Shown here: in pieces, positions 3,625 to 56,137 of the stretch
Layout: each line of letters begins with the position of its first letter
How positions within the stretch are numbered: position 1 is the stretch's first letter
IMG/VR virus record: IMGVR_UViG_3300035034_002090
Coordinates: 1 to 64,000 of that record
Origin: a virus
Length of the DNA: 64,000 bases
Strand: one strand, 5' to 3'
Position numbers and translations under genes: made by a program
Notes under the pieces: model-generated
The model's database searches: none
What the model was told of the DNA's origin: nothing
Seen by the model: only the letters and a program-made list of their open reading frames with translations

Positions 3625-3693
3625 ACCGAAACGCGAGTGCACACAATTGCACTCGCGTCTGCCCAACACTGACCGGTCGGGCACTGACGAGGC
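3625..3693 (+). ncRNA. Type II hammerhead ribozyme, copy 6
   Basis: ACC (3625-3627) leaves two stem II pairs and one A-C mismatch with GGC (3691-3693). GAAA (3628-3631), 10-bp stem III CGCGAGTGCA/TGCACTCGCG (3632-3641/3648-3657) with loop CACAAT, UC (3658-3659). Stem I is TGCCC/GGGCA plus a mismatch and two further pairs (3660-3683). Core CTGACGA (3684-3690), N7 = C. Stem III is nearly identical to copy 3, suggesting recent duplication. Confidence 0.87.
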
Positions 3694-7983: not shown

Positions 7984-8357
7984 AAAAAGTTATTGGCTAT
8001 ACACGCATACCGCCGGGAGGCGATGAAGCCCTTCTCCAAAAGCAGGCTAGCGACATCGAGTTATTCTGCAAGAATTGGGATTTCAAGCTTCTTCGCATTG
8101 AAAGTGACATCGCCGAGGGTGTCGGCAAAACAGGGGGCCGACCTGAAGGCATGAGAGCGGTCCTAGAATCGATCGCCAGAAACGAGGTCATGCATCTCGT
8201 CATCGCCGACCTCGTGTGTATTTCAGATTCATTTGAGGGCGCGCTGGACTTCAGGGACCGTAACTTTGGATACGGCCCACGAGGAATCTGGGTGGTTAAC
8301 TCACACGGAAACCTCCCATGGGCGTTTCAAGGAAAGGAGGGATTTGCCGATGTCTGA
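7980..8357 (+). CDS. Serine-recombinase-like protein lacking catalytic residues, 125 aa
   Basis: The protein aligns over its length with the N-terminal catalytic domain of the next gene (IGYTRIPPG against IGYARVSTE). The nucleophilic serine is proline here, and the DRLTR arginine motif is replaced by DLVCIS. The DNA-binding region is absent. It cannot cut DNA, but the fold could still form mixed dimers. ATG shares ATGA with the upstream stop and the end overlaps the active recombinase by 8 nt, so all three are coupled. Confidence 0.82.
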   Translation: MKKVIGYTRIPPGGDEALLQKQASDIELFCKNWDFKLLRIESDIAEGVGKTGGRPEGMRAVLESIARNEVMHLVIADLVCISDSFEGALDFRDRNFGYGPRGIWVVNSHGNLPWAFQGKEGFADV

Positions 8358-9063
8358 AAAAGCAATTGGATACGCACGCGTTTCGACTGAAGAGCAATCT
8401 TCTGAAGGCGTCAGCTTGGAAATGCAGGCTGAAAAAATCTCTAGCTACTGTGGCCTGTACGATCTCGAACTTATTCGCATCGAAGAGGATGCAGGCATCT
8501 CAGGTAAGAGCACGAGAAAGCGCAAGGGCCTTAAGAAGGCCATGGATGCCATCAAGGCAGGTGAGGCGACCCATCTAGTTGTCACCAAGCTCGATCGCCT
8601 CACTCGATCGCTCATGGACTTCAACAGAATGCTCGAAGAGTATTTCTCGGACAAGTACACACTTCACTCCGTGGCAGACAGGCTCGACACCAAGTCCGCA
8701 AACGGAAGGCTTGTCGTCAACATTTTGATGAGTGTCTGCCAATGGGAGCGCGAGGTCATCTCAGAGCGCACACGCGAAGCGCTTCAGCACAAGATCTCCA
8801 AAATGGAATACGTTGGAGGCAATGTCCCTTATGGCTATGTCCTGTCAGACGACGGTGTAATGCTGGAACCGATCCCTGAAGAACAATACACCGTTGACTA
8901 TATCTACGAGTTGAGAGAAGATCTCGACATGAGCTATCGGGCCATTGCCGATCAGCTCAAATCCGAAGGTATCTATGATCGAACGGGCGACCCCTTTGGT
9001 CATAACCAGATACGGCGGATTGTGGTGAGCAGTTATCACAAGCAGTACCGCCAAGCTTCGTGA
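8350..9063 (+). CDS. Serine site-specific recombinase (resolvase/invertase family)
   Basis: Start at ATG 8350 after AAAGGAGGG. The catalytic domain has YARVS with Arg10/Ser12, DAGISGKS and the DRLTR motif at 82-86, then a long helix with CQWEREVISERT. Residues 160-237 resemble the start of the Recombinase domain and a helix-turn-helix (SYRAIADQLKSEGI). At 237 aa it is longer than Tn3-type resolvases and shorter than large serine integrases, so resolution or inversion is more likely than integration. No attachment or inverted repeat site is evident nearby. Confidence 0.9.
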   Translation: MSEKAIGYARVSTEEQSSEGVSLEMQAEKISSYCGLYDLELIRIEEDAGISGKSTRKRKGLKKAMDAIKAGEATHLVVTKLDRLTRSLMDFNRMLEEYFSDKYTLHSVADRLDTKSANGRLVVNILMSVCQWEREVISERTREALQHKISKMEYVGGNVPYGYVLSDDGVMLEPIPEEQYTVDYIYELREDLDMSYRAIADQLKSEGIYDRTGDPFGHNQIRRIVVSSYHKQYRQAS

Positions 9064-9179: not shown

Positions 9180-9887
9180 TCAATTAGATTCGCTCATCTC
9201 TTCTAATACGATGCCTTGTACGTCTTTGAATAACGGGTCCTCTAAAATCCCCCCACTCTCAATTCGTAAGCGCTCCTTCTCAAGGCGACGTCTCACAAGC
9301 CCCTTGAATGGCCACATAAAAAGGTAGTCGGGGCCGGTAAATTTTCGCTCGACAAACCTCATGTAGGCCCAATCAATGCTCCCGCGTCTCCAGTATCTTG
9401 CAGCCATCGACATCGTGTATCCACGAAACTCAGCCCAAGCCCGGACGGGGGATGGAAGAGGAAGCAAAAACAGAAGTGCCAGAAGACACCATAACATCGG
9501 CAGATACCAGAACGCTCCAAGCGCCCCTAGCGCAATCATAGCGAAGATCTGCGGTACGATGTACCCGAGGTCAAAAAGATGGAATGGGATTCTGTCTCGG
9601 TCCCGCATATGAACTAACTCGTGCGCCAGTATCACCCAAGCTGATGACGACTCGATGTATGCGCGTGTTGGAAACCAGATCGTCTTTCCAATGACCGATG
9701 TGTAAGTCGTAAGGTATCGGTGCACGCGGTCGCCGTTTTCATCATCGCTCCAGAGCCAGAACGCAAGCCGCTCTCCAACGAACCTATGAAACTTTGACTC
9801 TTCTTTGAACTTGATCTCCATGTCCGGAAATCTGCGTCGGCCCAAGCTTAAAACCCTCGTGTAAATTCTGTCGTCTACGCTACTCAT
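9180..9887 (-). CDS. Membrane zinc metallopeptidase-like protein (M48-type HExxH), 235 aa
   Basis: HELVH at residues 89-93 gives the zinc-binding histidines and catalytic Glu. Two hydrophobic segments (about 102-147) follow, and RAWAEFRGY supplies a candidate third ligand, an order like M48/HtpX peptidases. The N-terminus is soluble and the C-terminus basic. It is encoded against the surrounding genes with its own SD (AAGGGGG). The isolated minus-strand position suggests a separately acquired gene. A substrate in the host membrane or envelope is inference. Confidence 0.75.
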   Translation of the reverse strand: MSSVDDRIYTRVLSLGRRRFPDMEIKFKEESKFHRFVGERLAFWLWSDDENGDRVHRYLTTYTSVIGKTIWFPTRAYIESSSAWVILAHELVHMRDRDRIPFHLFDLGYIVPQIFAMIALGALGAFWYLPMLWCLLALLFLLPLPSPVRAWAEFRGYTMSMAARYWRRGSIDWAYMRFVERKFTGPDYLFMWPFKGLVRRRLEKERLRIESGGILEDPLFKDVQGIVLEEMSESN

Positions 9888-9969: not shown

Positions 9970-9998
9970 TTGACACGTGCCTTTCTATATGTTAGATT
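9970..9998 (+). promoter_or_regulatory. Sigma70-type promoter
   Basis: TTGACA (9970-9975), 17-nt spacer, TAGATT (9993-9998), about 68 nt before the ATG at 10067. It belongs to the TTGACACG...TATGTTAG class also seen at 6098. Confidence 0.78.
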
Positions 9999-10066
9999 GA
10001 TCTAGCGTGAGGATGTGCCTTGCGCGGATTGAGGCAATTAACACAGAACCTAAAGGGAGGTTCACG

Positions 10067-11512
10067 ATGGAATGGTTTCACGTAGACAAGGAAGGTCTGA
10101 GGAAAGTTCTAGAGCGAAGAGGCAAAGAGTTCGTCGCTCTTGAGCTTGTTCAAAACGCGTGGGATGAGGACGTCCAGCGCGTAGACGTCACCCTGTCGTC
10201 CATTGAGGGGCGACGAGGACGAGCTGAGCTGGTAGTCCGAGACGATGACCCGGATGGGTTTGTTGAACTCTCTCATGCTTGGACGCTCTTCGCTGAGAGC
10301 GAGAAGAAATCCGACCCCGAGAAACGAGGTCGGTTCAATCTCGGAGAGAAGCTTGTCTTGGCACTTTGCGAAAAAGCCGAAATAACAACCACCACGGGTC
10401 GGGTCATCTTCAGCGAGAAAGGTCGGACCCACGGACGTAAGCGCACAGACGAAGGGTCGGTGTTCGAGGGTGTCGTCTTGATGACGAAGCCCGAAGTCGA
10501 GAAGACCGTCGAAGCTCTACGGACCCTTCTTCCGCCCGAAGGCATCAGCACGTACATCAATGGCGTCCTGCTCAATCGCCGAGAGCGGCTGTCAGAATTC
10601 GAAGCCACACTGGCCACGGAGATCTCTGGAGACGAGGGCCTTCTCAGGCCCACGCGAAGGAAGACGATCATCGAGGTCTACGAGGTCAACGAAGGGGAAG
10701 AGGCAACCCTTTACGAGATGGGCATTCCCGTTGTTCCGACCGGAGATCGGTGGCACATCAACATCTTGCAGAAGGTCCCTCTCAATATGGACCGGGACAA
10801 CGTAACGCCCAGCTACCTTCAGAATGTTCGGGCGCTCGTTGTTAACGAGATGGCCGACAACCTCAGCGATGAGGACTCGGCAGAGGGCTGGGTCACCGAC
10901 GCTATCAGTCATCGCGACGCAAGCCCTGACGCCGTCAAGAGGGTTATCGAAAAGCGCTTCGGAAAGAAGACCGTTATCTTCGACCCGAGTGACCCGGAAT
11001 CCAACAAGCGCGCTGCATCTGAGGGATACGCAGTCGTCCACGGCGGCACGCTCCCCGGGAAAGCTTGGGAGAACATCAAGAAGCACAACATCATCCGACC
11101 GGCGAGCAAGGTCACACCGTCGTCCTCTCCTTACAGTGACGACCCGAACGCAAAGCCTGTGAAGGTCTACGATAAGGACGAATGGACAGACGGTATGCGA
11201 CGGGTTCACGACTACACTGAGCGTGTGGTCAAGGCCGCGCTCGGTTTCACCATCGACATCAGGTTCGTGCTCGGCCCAATCCACTGGAGCGCCTGCTTCG
11301 GCGGACGTCGATTGGACTACAACGTGCGATCGCTCGGCAAGGCTTGGTTCAAGAAGGTCTCACGAGAGAAACTCGATGATCTCATCATACACGAGCTGGG
11401 CCACCACTACTGTGGGGACCATCTGTCCAGCGAATACTACAAGGCACTGACTAGAATCGGCTCCAAATTCATTACGGCAGCACTCGAAGACCCTGAGCTT
11501 TTTGAACTGTAA
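10067..11512 (+). CDS. GHKL-type ATPase fused to a C-terminal HExxH zinc protease, 481 aa
   Basis: Start at ATG 10067 after AAAGGGAGG. An N box ELVQNAWDE (26-34), a G1-like DDDPDGF (59-65) and GRFNLGEK (88-95) give the ATP lid layout of Hsp90/MutL/MORC-type GHKL ATPases. HELGHH (442-447) near the C-terminus is a metallopeptidase signature. The middle region (120-430) is unassigned. Coupling an ATP-driven clamp to a protease suggests conditional proteolysis, perhaps in defence or counter-defence (inference). It has its own promoter and a strong hairpin after its stop. Confidence 0.85.
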   Translation: MEWFHVDKEGLRKVLERRGKEFVALELVQNAWDEDVQRVDVTLSSIEGRRGRAELVVRDDDPDGFVELSHAWTLFAESEKKSDPEKRGRFNLGEKLVLALCEKAEITTTTGRVIFSEKGRTHGRKRTDEGSVFEGVVLMTKPEVEKTVEALRTLLPPEGISTYINGVLLNRRERLSEFEATLATEISGDEGLLRPTRRKTIIEVYEVNEGEEATLYEMGIPVVPTGDRWHINILQKVPLNMDRDNVTPSYLQNVRALVVNEMADNLSDEDSAEGWVTDAISHRDASPDAVKRVIEKRFGKKTVIFDPSDPESNKRAASEGYAVVHGGTLPGKAWENIKKHNIIRPASKVTPSSSPYSDDPNAKPVKVYDKDEWTDGMRRVHDYTERVVKAALGFTIDIRFVLGPIHWSACFGGRRLDYNVRSLGKAWFKKVSREKLDDLIIHELGHHYCGDHLSSEYYKALTRIGSKFITAALEDPELFEL

Positions 11513-11521
11513 CCTACCGAT

Positions 11522-11553
11522 CAAACGAGGGCGCTACCTCGCGCCCTCGTTTG
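11522..11553 (+). terminator. Perfect 13-bp hairpin after the GHKL gene
   Basis: CAAACGAGGGCGC (11522-11534) pairs exactly with GCGCCCTCGTTTG (11541-11553) with loop TACCTC. The run after the stem (GCC) lacks a U-tract, so termination may be partial. The next gene's SD (AAGGAG) follows within 6 nt, so the stem could also shape the start of that mRNA. Confidence 0.6.
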
Positions 11554-50369: not shown

Positions 50370-52247
50370 ATGGATGACTCAAAGACCCTTTCGTCCCTAG
50401 ATCCAGATCAGCGCACTGTTGTCACACATGATGGCAGTGATTGCCTTGTTCTTGCTGGGGCCGGAAGTGGTAAAACTAGATCTCTGGAAAGTCGCGTAGC
50501 TTGGCTTATTGAGCAGGGGCAATCACCTCACAGAATTGTTGCCTTCTCCTTCACTAGGCGAGCAAGCAGCGAGCTAAAGGAAAGGGTGGCGCGTACTCAC
50601 CCGCGTGCTCACGAGGTGCACATAGGAACCTTTCATTCGCTGTGTCTCGGCTTCCTTAAGGAGTACATGGGGCATCTTACGCCCTTGCACCCGTCAGACG
50701 CGAGGCGGATCATCAGGCGGCAGTTCTCTGACGTCAGGTGGAATAGCGAGCTGCCAGCAGGATATGTTCTTGCGTTATTTGACGCCGCAAAGAGCAAGGG
50801 GCTTGAAGAGACGGAGTTTTACGAATTCTTCGCGGAGGCCAACAGTAAGCAAGCCTCAAAGATGATGCAGATATTAGCCTCCTATGAGACCTACAAGCAG
50901 GCTAATTCGCTAGTCGACTTTGCGGATATGATATGGAGGTTCTGGAGGATGCTCCGGGGCGATGACAGGGTAAGGAACAGCACTAGAGAGCGATTTGATC
51001 ATGTGCTGGTGGATGAGGTGCAGGATCTGAACCCTGTTCAGATCTACGTTGCTGATCTGATGACAGCCCCTGAGTCATCGCTGTTCATGGTGGGCGACCA
51101 AAGACAAAGTATTTACGGATTCAGAGGCGTAAATCTAGACGTGCTGGACGAGGTCGCTGACAAGAGGGACATGAAGAGGCTTTCGCTTACGCGGAACTAC
51201 AGATGTGCAAAGGGCATTGTTACTGTATCCAACTCTCTCATCGAATATGCAGATCGCGCTTTCCCGCCTATGGATAGTCAGCGAGATGATTGGGGGGAGG
51301 TCAGGAGTTATGTGTTTGAGGACTCCAATGCAGAAGCTCTGTTTGTGGCTAATTCCATCAAAAAAGATGTTGAGGGCGGTACATCACCGGACGAGATTGC
51401 CTGTATTTACAGGACGAATGCTCAGTCCCAATACCTAGAGGCATCCCTGAACGGCGTGGCCATCCCCTACGAGGTGAGTGGCCATAATAACTTCTTTCAG
51501 TCCCGAGAAGTGATGGATGCAATAGCCTACCTCAAGATTGCATCTAACCCCCGAGATCTTGAAGCTCTCCTAAGGGTTTACAGCAGCCCATCGAGGTACT
51601 TGGGAAGAAAGTTCGCTGAGGCCGCTAAGGATGTATGGGAGGAATCCCCAAGCATAGACGTCTATGATGCACTAGATGTCGTTGCCTCTCGCATCTATCG
51701 CTCAAGAAGATCTATTCTCACGCTTAAGAGCGACATCGCAGACTTAGCAAAAATGATAGCATCGGGTGCCAACACTCAGAGAGTCCTTCAGGATGTGTAC
51801 GCGGTTAGGTCTTTGGTGGATACATCTAAGACGTTCTATGACGTATATGCGGATTGGGAGGACCACAGGGGAGAGAACCTCGATGCCCTCCTAGATCTGT
51901 CTCATGTAATTCCAAGTGTGGAGGACATGATTTCTTTCGCTGAGGTCAATGCCCAGAGCCGAAGTGATGCAGATGGAGAGCGCGTCAAGCTTCTCACTAT
52001 TCATCGCTCGAAAGGTCTGGAGTTCAAGAAGGTCTATTTCGTAGGATGTACTGAGCGCATCGTTCCTCACCAGCTGGGTGAGGTTTCCGAGGAAAGAAGA
52101 TGCGCCTATGTGGCGATGACCCGCGCAAAGGACGAACTTGTTATCACATCGTCTCGAAACGCGTTCGGGAAACGAGCAGGTCCTAGCCGATTCTTTGCGG
52201 AACTTGGATCCACACCAGCCCCTCCCTCCATAGATGACGTATCATGA
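50370..52247 (+). CDS. UvrD/Rep-family superfamily 1 helicase, 625 aa
   Basis: Start at ATG 50370 (SD AAAGGAATC); ATG 50334 has none. AGAGSGKT (30-37), VDEVQD, GDQRQSIYGFRG, LTIHRSKGLEF and YVAMTRAKDEL are motifs I, II, III, V and VI. It unwinds DNA 3'-5' in repair or replication restart. Its stop overlaps the next helicase start (ATGA). Confidence 0.94.
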   Translation: MDDSKTLSSLDPDQRTVVTHDGSDCLVLAGAGSGKTRSLESRVAWLIEQGQSPHRIVAFSFTRRASSELKERVARTHPRAHEVHIGTFHSLCLGFLKEYMGHLTPLHPSDARRIIRRQFSDVRWNSELPAGYVLALFDAAKSKGLEETEFYEFFAEANSKQASKMMQILASYETYKQANSLVDFADMIWRFWRMLRGDDRVRNSTRERFDHVLVDEVQDLNPVQIYVADLMTAPESSLFMVGDQRQSIYGFRGVNLDVLDEVADKRDMKRLSLTRNYRCAKGIVTVSNSLIEYADRAFPPMDSQRDDWGEVRSYVFEDSNAEALFVANSIKKDVEGGTSPDEIACIYRTNAQSQYLEASLNGVAIPYEVSGHNNFFQSREVMDAIAYLKIASNPRDLEALLRVYSSPSRYLGRKFAEAAKDVWEESPSIDVYDALDVVASRIYRSRRSILTLKSDIADLAKMIASGANTQRVLQDVYAVRSLVDTSKTFYDVYADWEDHRGENLDALLDLSHVIPSVEDMISFAEVNAQSRSDADGERVKLLTIHRSKGLEFKKVYFVGCTERIVPHQLGEVSEERRCAYVAMTRAKDELVITSSRNAFGKRAGPSRFFAELGSTPAPPSIDDVS

Positions 52248-55200
52248 GTAAGTCCATATCACCCTCGGATCTTGTCTCGTTCATTTCCGAGCTGTTTGAG
52301 TTTAATGACAGGCCCGGATCCCTTGTTGCTTTTCCGGCGGCCAAGCCTGAGTGGCTAGATGGCATACCATCTAACCATGATGTCATCTGTGTTTCTGAGC
52401 ACGTCCAGTCAGAGTCTCAAGACGGTCGCGTTTTAGTTGGGCGTTCTTTTTACAGGGCCGTTCCATTTAGCGCGGACTTCTATATAGCCATAGGGAAGTC
52501 CGGCGTCATCGAGGCTCCGATGCTGAGCTTGCAGTCTGCTCGGTTCGGGCCATTTGGTCCTTCGAGCCGCTCAGACATAGAGCCAGCACTGATCGAAACC
52601 TGTCTATCTGGGGCTAGGCGCTTTGCCTGTGCTTTGGTCCCGCGACGATTCATTGTCGGCGATGCGTTTGCAAAGGTTCGGGCGTGGGTGAGAGCCAGCT
52701 CGGCCGCTGAGGCGCTCCGGGTGTCCATTGATTCCGGTGTAATCGACGGTTTTGGTGACCACATGATGCTGATGGTATGGCATGTGGGTCAGTCCTCGAA
52801 GAGAGACAAGCCCGTATGGGCGAGGGTTCAGAAGCCGGATGACTTCGACGACGTGATTGTTGACTGGCAACGATCGAACTGGAGAGCTGCACTTTTCGAT
52901 GAATACAAGCGAATCAGACTCTCCGGTAAGTGCTCAATGCCTGAGGATTTCATGCGGGATGAGCCTGATTTCCGGGTGGAATTCAGGTCTGACGATTCGC
53001 CCGTGGCGTCTGAGAGGCTCAAGGTGTGTGTCGACGGCAACGGTGGGGCGCTACGTCTGGTAGCCCAAGACGATGGCGCTCTTGCTTCCCTGAGAGCTGC
53101 AAAGAGGATGCTTGGGACCAAACGAGACCAAGTAAGCAAGCAACGAGTACCAACGTTAGACTTTCGCCTGCGCGCAAGGTGGCTTGTCAGACAGGATAAC
53201 GGCCTCGACAAGATAGTAGATGTCCTTGAGAGCTTCGGGTTTGACGTCGAGATCTCCGACGACGTACCGGGATGGCTTCAAAGCATCAACAACCGATACC
53301 GGCGAGAGATAGCTCCCTTCGAACAGAACATTCAGGTAGATGATGGCTGGGAATGCCTTCATCAAGAGAGGGGTGTAGAGAGTGCTCTCTCAGATCTCTA
53401 TCAGAACAACCTGAAGCGGCTAGACACTGATCTTCCGTGGCCACTGTGGAAGTTTCAGGAGAGGGACGTCGCCAGAATGCTGTGTAAACCGAACTCGATG
53501 TATGCTGCTTTTATGGGTGCCGGAAAAGCCTCTACTCTGGACGCTAAAATCCTGACCCCTTCTGGCTGGGTCAGGATGGGCGACATCACTATAGGTGATC
53601 ACGTAACTGGACGAGACGGTAAGCCTCATAAAGTCGTCGGCGTGTACCCGCAAGGAAAAAAAGAGGTTTATCGAGTTACCTTCTCTGATGGCGCATCAAC
53701 GGAGTGCTGCGACGAGCATTTGTGGAACGTAATGTCACCTCAGTTGAAGAATCAAAGCAAAGGAGGCTACGAGAGATGGCAAACTAAGTCCCTTCGACAG
53801 ATCATGGATGAGGGCCTTAGAGATAGGTGGGGCAATCTCAAGAACTTCATCCCAATGGTGGAGCCCGTTGAGTTTACCCCTGAAAGAGATCTTCCTGTCG
53901 ATCCTTATCTCCTTGGTCTTCTTCTGGGAGATGGTTATCTCGGTAAAACCACGCCATCAATCTCAACGGCTGACGAGGCTATTATAAAGGAGGTAGCTAG
54001 ACTCATCCCATCCGGTATGGAGGTTGTCTATTCTTCTGGATATGACTACCGACTCGTTAACTATGGGGAGCGCGTAAACCCACTCTATGAGCATCTTGAT
54101 GATTTGGGCGTTGCTGGGAAGCTAGCTCAGGATAAATCTGTTCCGGAAAGATACCTCTATGCCTCTATCGAAGACAGGCTTTCACTCCTTCATGGGCTGA
54201 TGGACTCTGATGGTACACCATCTCGACTAGCAGCTACTTTCTGTAGCGTTAGCAAAAAGCTAGCGGAGGATATGACCCACTTAGCAAGGAGTCTTGGTGG
54301 TACAGCTACTATCAAATCCCGACAAACATCCTATACCCACAATGGACACAAGCGAAAAGGGCGTATGTCTTGGAGGGTTAGGGTTCGCCTTCCAGAGGGG
54401 ATTCCTCTTTTCAGACTCAAGAGAAAACTGGATCTTGTCGAAGGCAAAGGTAAGCCAGACCCCACTAGATCTATCACGTCTATAGAAGCCGTGGGCGAAA
54501 AGGAGTGCCAGTGCATACAGGTAGATGCGGACGATCAACTATATGTAACCGATGACTTTATTGTAACTCACAACACCCGCCTATCGATGTCTTACATCTG
54601 GATGCGCGGAGGCCGAAGAAATTTGGTGGTTCTTCAGTCCAGATTGATTGATGAGTTCATTGAGGAAGCTGAGAAGATTGGATTTCCCCTCGAAGACATA
54701 CATGTCATCGAGCAGATCGAAGACGCTGAGCCCGAAAACCTAAAGAGACTCAACCTCATCTCCTACTCCAAGGTCTGGAAGCAGGTAGGTAACAGTGTCA
54801 GACCGCTTCCGGAGGACGCACCCAAGTCTGCCAAGCCAGATGCCTGCAAGACAATAGCGCACGTCTTGAGGAAGACTAGGTTCAACAGCCTCATATTTGA
54901 CGAGGCTCACTATCTCAAGGGTGGACCGTCAACGATGCAAGCGCGCTACTCTATGCTTTTCAGATCTAAGCACGTCTTGCTGATGTCAGGAACGGTAGCC
55001 AGAAACTATCCAAGAAACCTGTATCCGCTCATGGTCCGGGCATTCGGGTCTTCCTCGACGTCATGTCAGTGGGCATACGGCATCCCGGTCGAACATCCAG
55101 ACAAAGCAGACTCGTGCACTTCTGGCACAAGGGTTTTCAGCGATAAGTTCGTCGAAACCACCTATGTGAGTTCGCAATTCTCAGAGACATCAGAGGGACC

Positions 55201-56137
55201 CAAGGGCCGGGAGCTACCAAAGGTGCCGGATGATGCTTTGGAGGACTGGTACTCGATGCTTGAGCACAAGGTCCTCAGGCGGCAGCGGAAAGAGCCTGAG
55301 GTACTCCGAGATATTCCACTCCCGGAAGCTGATGAAAGGGATGTCGAGTTTGCTATCGATCGCCAGCACGCCGAGTTCTACTATTGGTGGCTTGAGAACT
55401 TCTTTGAGTGGATGGAGACGGAGATTGCCAAGGAAAAGTCCTCCGGAAGCTACAGCATGAATAACGGCGCGATTTTGGCTCAGCTTCAGAAGCTCCAATT
55501 TGCAGCTACCATCCCTCAGTCCCCGAAGGTCAATGAAGGCGTGCCTGTGAAGTGGCCCGGGGGATTAACTACAAAACAAGAGGGTGTGGTTGACAGCGTA
55601 ACTGAATCCGTCATCGCTGGTGGAGAGAAGGTCATCGTCTTCTCAAAAAGGCCCGAGCTTTTGGATCTTCTGGACGAAGAGTTCTACAAACGAGGTGTGT
55701 CTTCGGCGGTTTTTCATGGCGGCGTGACCATTTCCAATAGAAATAAGAAGCTCAAGAATTTCCGATCTCAGGACGGCCCCGATGTTCTTCTTATGTCGCT
55801 GGGATCTGGCAATACGGGATACAACATACCTGAAGCAGACGCGGTATGGCTGTGCGACTACGATTGGGTCCCTTCAACTATGAAGCAGGCCGCAGCGCGT
55901 ATGCTGCGGGCTGAATGGCTCACCGAGGAACGCAAAGAGTCTGGCGCTCAACCTAAGATTCGTCAGGCTGTGCAGATGGGCACCATCGACGAATACATGA
56001 GGCAGTTGGTTAACCTGAAAATGGATGGCTTGGATCAGGCCCTTGACCGTCAGAATGCTGATTTTGACCCGGATAAATGGATGACTTATCGAGATTTCTC
56101 CGTAAAAATGTTCCGCGATCTAGGCTTTGAGCTGTAG
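52244..56137 (+). CDS. SNF2-family helicase interrupted by an intein, 1297 aa precursor
   Basis: Helicase motifs split by the intein: GAGK before, T after the insertion (Walker A), then IFDEAHYLKGG (DEAH), LMSGTVARN (motif III), VIVFSKRPE and KQAAARMLRAEW (motif VI). The N-terminal 420 residues are a separate beta-rich domain. The mature protein would be about 948 aa. It is coupled to the UvrD gene. A second, larger SNF2 helicase is at 24046. Role in recombination or defence evasion is inferred. Confidence 0.93.
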   Translation: MSKSISPSDLVSFISELFEFNDRPGSLVAFPAAKPEWLDGIPSNHDVICVSEHVQSESQDGRVLVGRSFYRAVPFSADFYIAIGKSGVIEAPMLSLQSARFGPFGPSSRSDIEPALIETCLSGARRFACALVPRRFIVGDAFAKVRAWVRASSAAEALRVSIDSGVIDGFGDHMMLMVWHVGQSSKRDKPVWARVQKPDDFDDVIVDWQRSNWRAALFDEYKRIRLSGKCSMPEDFMRDEPDFRVEFRSDDSPVASERLKVCVDGNGGALRLVAQDDGALASLRAAKRMLGTKRDQVSKQRVPTLDFRLRARWLVRQDNGLDKIVDVLESFGFDVEISDDVPGWLQSINNRYRREIAPFEQNIQVDDGWECLHQERGVESALSDLYQNNLKRLDTDLPWPLWKFQERDVARMLCKPNSMYAAFMGAGKASTLDAKILTPSGWVRMGDITIGDHVTGRDGKPHKVVGVYPQGKKEVYRVTFSDGASTECCDEHLWNVMSPQLKNQSKGGYERWQTKSLRQIMDEGLRDRWGNLKNFIPMVEPVEFTPERDLPVDPYLLGLLLGDGYLGKTTPSISTADEAIIKEVARLIPSGMEVVYSSGYDYRLVNYGERVNPLYEHLDDLGVAGKLAQDKSVPERYLYASIEDRLSLLHGLMDSDGTPSRLAATFCSVSKKLAEDMTHLARSLGGTATIKSRQTSYTHNGHKRKGRMSWRVRVRLPEGIPLFRLKRKLDLVEGKGKPDPTRSITSIEAVGEKECQCIQVDADDQLYVTDDFIVTHNTRLSMSYIWMRGGRRNLVVLQSRLIDEFIEEAEKIGFPLEDIHVIEQIEDAEPENLKRLNLISYSKVWKQVGNSVRPLPEDAPKSAKPDACKTIAHVLRKTRFNSLIFDEAHYLKGGPSTMQARYSMLFRSKHVLLMSGTVARNYPRNLYPLMVRAFGSSSTSCQWAYGIPVEHPDKADSCTSGTRVFSDKFVETTYVSSQFSETSEGPKGRELPKVPDDALEDWYSMLEHKVLRRQRKEPEVLRDIPLPEADERDVEFAIDRQHAEFYYWWLENFFEWMETEIAKEKSSGSYSMNNGAILAQLQKLQFAATIPQSPKVNEGVPVKWPGGLTTKQEGVVDSVTESVIAGGEKVIVFSKRPELLDLLDEEFYKRGVSSAVFHGGVTISNRNKKLKNFRSQDGPDVLLMSLGSGNTGYNIPEADAVWLCDYDWVPSTMKQAAARMLRAEWLTEERKESGAQPKIRQAVQMGTIDEYMRQLVNLKMDGLDQALDRQNADFDPDKWMTYRDFSVKMFRDLGFEL
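53528..54574 (+). mobile_element. Intein with LAGLIDADG homing endonuclease, 349 aa
   Basis: Insertion lies between Lys and Thr of Walker A (GAGK/T). It starts ASTLDAKILTPSGWVRMGD (block A/B region with an Ala first residue) and ends VTDDFIVTHN followed by Thr. LLGLLLGDGYL and LLHGLMDSDGT are the two LAGLIDADG helices. The first residue Ala and +1 Thr are unusual and resemble splicing variants in which the +1 residue attacks directly. Removal restores GAGKTRLS. Position in a Walker A motif is a common intein site. Confidence 0.93.

Follow-up and report, generated by a model that had tools for sequence, protein, structure and literature searches.

A gene at positions 10067–11512 (+ strand) of the viral DNA analyzed here, a 64,000-nucleotide stretch that we call the window, encodes a 481-residue protein in which a GHKL ATPase is fused to a minigluzincin/WLM-like zinc protease, placing two catalytic folds with their conserved motifs on one chain. 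The fusion protein represents a widespread, unnamed family of large phages, plasmids and some bacteria; Pfam, NCBIfam and PHROG hold no model of the whole protein. The original prediction started from the N and G1 boxes of a GHKL ATPase and a C-terminal HELGHH in this one product, and these motifs are present and conserved across an alignment of 104 relatives. The open reading frame is intact from its ATG at 10067, and its attribution to a phage also stands, as the window comes from a 173-kb virus record and contains genes for phage replication (exonuclease, processivity factor, helicases and DnaB). A second assembly of the region is 99.98% identical, with 4 differences in 17,443 bases.

ATPase and transducer domains

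Residues 1–150 (10067–10516, +) constitute the predicted GHKL (Bergerat) ATP-binding domain. Its N box (ExxxNxxD; E26-L-V-Q-N30-A-W-D33, 10142–10165) has E26, N30 and D33 invariant in 104 of 104 relatives, as are G64 of the G1 box (DDDPDGF, residues 59–65, 10241–10261) and G88, G93 and K95 of the G2 box that forms the ATP lid (RGRFNLGEK, residues 87–95, 10325–10351); D59 and D60 of the G1 box are kept in 95 and 90 relatives, respectively. An S5/transducer-like domain follows (residues 151–285, 10517–10921, +). It contains the motif Q235-K/R236-VPLNMD-R243 (10769–10795, +), which resembles the Hsp90 PLNxSR motif and has Q235, R243 and a lysine or arginine at 236 in all 104 relatives. By analogy with Hsp90 and MutL, we propose that this motif is the strip that contacts the ATP γ-phosphate.

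An AlphaFold model of the full-length protein has a mean pLDDT of 94.6, and its best PDB matches by Foldseek are ATPase-plus-transducer structures of TRAP1, MORC3 and topoisomerase II, with the alignments extending through the transducer at only ~10–16% identity to the solved structures. In profile scans with lenient E-value limits, HATPase_c_3 was detected in 79 of 95 relatives and the NCBIfam sacsin ATPase domain in 90 of 95; the 481-residue protein alone scores below the curated Pfam cut-off for HATPase_c_3. Sacsin is the best GHKL profile match and TRAP1 the best fold match, and adenylate kinase was discarded as a relative, its matches in the PDB search being insignificant. As judged from sequence and model, the product is a GHKL superfamily member with N, G1 and G2 boxes in a predicted Bergerat fold and an S5 transducer with conserved basic residues. 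A small α/β linker domain (residues 286–364, 10922–11158, +), mostly modeled with confidence and with a mean pairwise identity of 37.6%, connects this part to the protease and matched no recognized family.

The zinc protease domain

The C-terminal domain (residues 365–481, 11159–11509, +) carries the zinc site HELGHHYCGDH (11390–11422), with HELGHH at residues 442–447 and a third histidine at 452; the quartet H442, E443, H446 and H452 is intact in 101 of 104 relatives. When the C-terminal 116 residues were modeled alone, the pLDDT was 97.7 and the HExxH lay on a helix. The nearest structures to this domain are jannalysin (a minigluzincin), BepA and SPRTN, with weak Foldseek E-values (best 0.02), and profile searches reach myroilysin, proabylysin and Wss1 WLM proteases, again as weak matches. 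Pfam WLM was found under lenient limits in the zincin domains of 40 of 94 relatives (best E 2e-5) but not in that of the window protein. Fold and profile matches together thus suggest a zincin that most closely resembles the minigluzincin/WLM/SprT group. A metzincin assignment, which the HExxHx5H spacing would fit, was rejected because the usual glycine is out of place and the spacing between the second and third histidines varies, being five residues in 89 of 104 relatives and variable in the rest.

In the profile searches and structure prediction proposed at the outset, profiles recover both domains among relatives, whereas the window protein itself has a sub-threshold HATPase_c_3 match and no WLM match; the models, by contrast, place both a Bergerat fold with its transducer and a zincin site in the window protein.

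The zinc quartet is missing in three relatives (L026, L037 and L131), two of which look like frame or truncation problems. In L131, the zinc site reads S-E-H instead of H-E-H with the ATPase residues intact, possibly reflecting a natural protease-dead variant or an error of alignment or sequence.

Flanking signals and adjacent genes

A ribosome-binding site, AAAGGGAGG (10052–10060, +), is read directly from the sequence 6 nt 5′ of the ATG. The gene had been credited with its own promoter, and a consensus scan does find a promoter-like site upstream (TTGACA-17 nt-TAGATT with an extended –10 TG; 9970–9998, +; 10 of 12 matches), but chance alone would give ~1.2 such matches in a 2.5-kb region. 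The strong hairpin noted behind the gene is real: a perfect 13-bp stem at 11522–11553 (+), 9 nt 3′ of the stop codon, has a folding energy of –28.6 kcal/mol (z = –6.4), and no perfect stem of this kind in the window is longer. It lacks a T-tract and is therefore no textbook terminator, although a terminator role is plausible.

Shortly upstream of the fusion gene, a serine recombinase (resolvase) is encoded at 8347–9063 (+) and could mark a region of mobile cargo. Between the two lies a divergent gene (9180–9887, –) for a 235-residue protein with an HELVH motif, hydrophobic stretches and a weak eCIS_core match, a possible membrane zinc protease judging by its sequence; it has no relatives in phage records and, in viral contigs, recurs only in the same virus.

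Family distribution and selection

Relatives were gathered by tblastn and pattern scans of phage records, plasmids, genomes and viral contigs. Only one of 50,697 phage records, that of an uncultured 485-kb phage, contains a relative, and two diverged members used as queries returned the same single record. Elsewhere, the family was found on six plasmids, at 45 genome loci and in 124 or more stretches of viral contigs, 80 of which were kept; the alignment comprises 104 non-redundant relatives, of which nearly all are full length. The original prediction knew of no such domain pair in phages, and in the literature searched, which covered few subscription papers, the pair likewise seems to be undescribed. 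Several relatives reside on contigs of 200–485 kb. Viral contigs longer than 200 kb account for 13 of the 80 kept, a proportion that is not by itself enrichment because long contigs are likelier to hold any gene. Full-length plasmid copies occur in Methylibium petroleiphilum PM1, Rhodovastum atsumiense and Bosea sp.; the Rhodovastum copy also seems to be present in IMG/VR (L074, with identical protein ends).

Viral and bacterial copies are intermixed in the tree, whose well-supported branches require at least seven switches between the two; prophages or phage-plasmids may be the actual source of part of the bacterial contigs. In the close pairs scored, the overall dN/dS is ~0.11–0.17, and all three protein regions are under purifying selection.

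Gene neighborhoods

All-against-all clustering of 1,506 neighbor proteins, called with a simple longest-ORF method that yields some false genes in GC-rich DNA, revealed no neighbor family in more than 5 of the 104 loci. Among 117 immediate neighbors, Pfam and PADLOC matches were all single cases except DUF4145, which occurred in three. The neighbors that could be identified are common genes of phages or of nucleotide metabolism: RecA, capsid, Thy1, thymidylate kinase, dUTPase, Dam and RNA ligase were each found at one or a few loci, with a single capsid gene among the 117. The fusion protein itself matches PADLOC models weakly, for the most part through the shared ATPase domain, and the Rhodovastum plasmid copy lies ~3–4 kb from SIR2-HerA. 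The description of the gene as a stand-alone module agrees with the absence of a conserved partner, although the start codon overlaps the upstream gene in an operon-like manner in several relatives.

A remote, mainly cyanobacterial branch is ~20–22% identical over the whole protein. On two Picosynechococcus plasmids (L007 and L008), its members are flanked by a DisA-N domain protein on one side and a CHAT-domain protein on the other, possibly an undescribed signaling or defense set, and on a Cyanobacteria contig (L044) a member adjoins an ORF judged TIR-like by eye. These neighbors suggest a conflict role for the same architecture in the remote branch.

Discussion

Well-characterized ATP-dependent proteases, including Clp, Lon, FtsH, HslUV and the proteasome, use AAA+ motors. 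A widespread family in which a GHKL clamp and a zinc protease share one chain would offer a second route by which ATP could drive proteolysis. The best explanation of the fusion protein, offered tentatively and largely by analogy, is an ATP-gated zinc protease that clamps captured, most likely DNA-bound, proteins. As in Hsp90, MutL and MORC, ATP binding would dimerize the GHKL–transducer part and close the clamp around a client, the C-terminal minigluzincin/WLM-like domain would cut the trapped protein, and ATP hydrolysis would reopen the clamp. We infer dimerization, gating, DNA association and the choice of substrate from such related systems. Wss1 and SPRTN are minigluzincins (PMC4559962) and DNA-dependent proteases (PMC5128726), and on their example the likeliest clients would be proteins bound or crosslinked to the DNA of phages or plasmids, or other complexes stalled on it. 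The fusion protein would then be a self-contained counterpart of these enzymes. The more specific proposal, that a single-chain clamp protease gated by a GHKL ATPase in place of an AAA+ unfoldase strips phage and plasmid DNA of proteins, is somewhat doubtful. For large phages and plasmids, a clamp protease of this kind might serve as a self-contained means of removing proteins stuck on DNA.

The clamp-protease explanation draws on the confident full-length model, the invariant ATPase and transducer residues, the near-invariant zinc ligands, the purifying selection on all three regions and the precedent of other GHKL ATPases with a C-terminal effector. Also counted for it were the resemblance of the GHKL half to MORC, topoisomerase II and MutL, all of which act on DNA, and neighbors such as RecA, Thy1, thymidylate kinase, dUTPase, Dam and RNA ligase. 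Genes of nucleotide metabolism are, however, common neighbors in large phages anyway, and no DNA-binding domain was recognized in the fusion protein. The weak Foldseek E-values of the zincin by itself and the conflict-type neighbors of the remote branch also count against the explanation. Moreover, the GHKL profile match extends to sacsin and Hsp90 and would suit protein clients without DNA. A chaperone-protease of that type, in which an Hsp90/sacsin-like clamp trims or removes unfolded or assembly-stage proteins, for example in virion maturation or proteostasis, seems rather unlikely but ranks next. The sacsin and TRAP1 top matches point toward it, and pairing of chaperones with peptidases has precedent in jumbo phages, as in the MoxR–vWA–metallopeptidase system (PMC7824862). 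It sits less easily with the rarity of virion genes among the neighbors, where a single capsid gene was seen in 117, and with the presence of the gene on plasmids and bacterial contigs as well.

That plasmids and bacteria carry the same family also counts against a protease that cuts an immune or regulatory protein of the infected host. The original prediction had proposed such an anti-defense or host-shutoff role, but nothing in the neighborhoods, the PADLOC matches or the pattern of selection points specifically to it over a role in DNA or protein maintenance. Selection is purifying in every region rather than diversifying, and the 117 neighbors scanned contain no recurrent defense or anti-defense genes in the phage branch. 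In its favor are the patchy distribution of the family, with repeated viral–bacterial exchange, the suggestion that host proteins are targets of SprT-like and ArdC-like zincins in jumbo phages, and the discussion of rIIA, another phage GHKL protein, as a counter-defense factor (PMC7824862); overall, we regard this role as unlikely. Least probable of the four is a bacterial-type defense or abortive-infection effector on mobile elements, in which an ATP sensor would gate a toxic protease against competing phages. Defense and restriction systems are the GHKL-linked analogs (VcSduA, PMC12137116; paraMORCs, PMC2292703), and the DisA-N, CHAT and TIR-like neighbors of the remote branch, together with SIR2-HerA near the Rhodovastum plasmid copy, would fit such an effector. 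The main branch nevertheless has no conserved partner, the fusion protein reaches PADLOC models chiefly through its ATPase domain, and defense matches among neighbors are isolated. We therefore rank the DNA-associated clamp protease above the chaperone-protease, followed by counter-defense and then the defense effector.

Hsp90/TRAP1, sacsin, MutL and MORC have the same Bergerat fold, N, G1 and G2 boxes and S5-type transducer with conserved basic residues, but none of these matches is described with a zinc protease. Similarly, jannalysin, proabylysin, Wss1 and SPRTN share the compact zincin with HExxH and a third histidine, whereas the phage zincin is fused to an ATPase, varies in third-histidine spacing and matches the minigluzincin/WLM/SprT group weakly by profile and fold. 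GHKL ATPases with a C-terminal effector on the same chain are already known, as VcSduA (GHKL-Shedu) carries a nuclease (PMC12137116), paraMORC3 a nuclease and paraMORC4 a TIR domain (PMC2292703); text searches of these two papers returned no protease effector. What appears to be new here is a protease as the effector of a GHKL ATPase, in a main branch that, in contrast to these systems, has no recurrent restriction–modification or defense context. The protein is not of the Shedu (DUF4263) GHKL type, as its C-terminal domain is a zincin rather than a PD-(D/E)xK nuclease and DUF4263 is absent from the families listed. T4 rIIA, too, is a GHKL ATPase of a phage, and its C-terminal part is variable (PMC7824862); Foldseek searches with the fusion protein also match RIIA proteins. 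Membership in the rIIA family was nonetheless rejected: an hhalign comparison with T4 rIIA spans only residues 19–167, the ATP-binding core, at 25% probability, no matched PHROG is named rIIA, and the C-terminal part of the fusion protein is a zincin. The plasmid copies of PM1, Rhodovastum and Bosea make the family testable without the uncultured phage.

Other features of the window

Near-identical 28-base perfect hairpins, differing at one loop base, occur at 1130–1157 and 3631–3658, each directly 3′ of an ORF. Farther downstream, a 1297-residue protein (52244–56137, +) matches terminase, primase and helicase-loader ATPase PHROGs in its middle and a helicase PHROG in its C-terminal part, and may be a fused primase–helicase.
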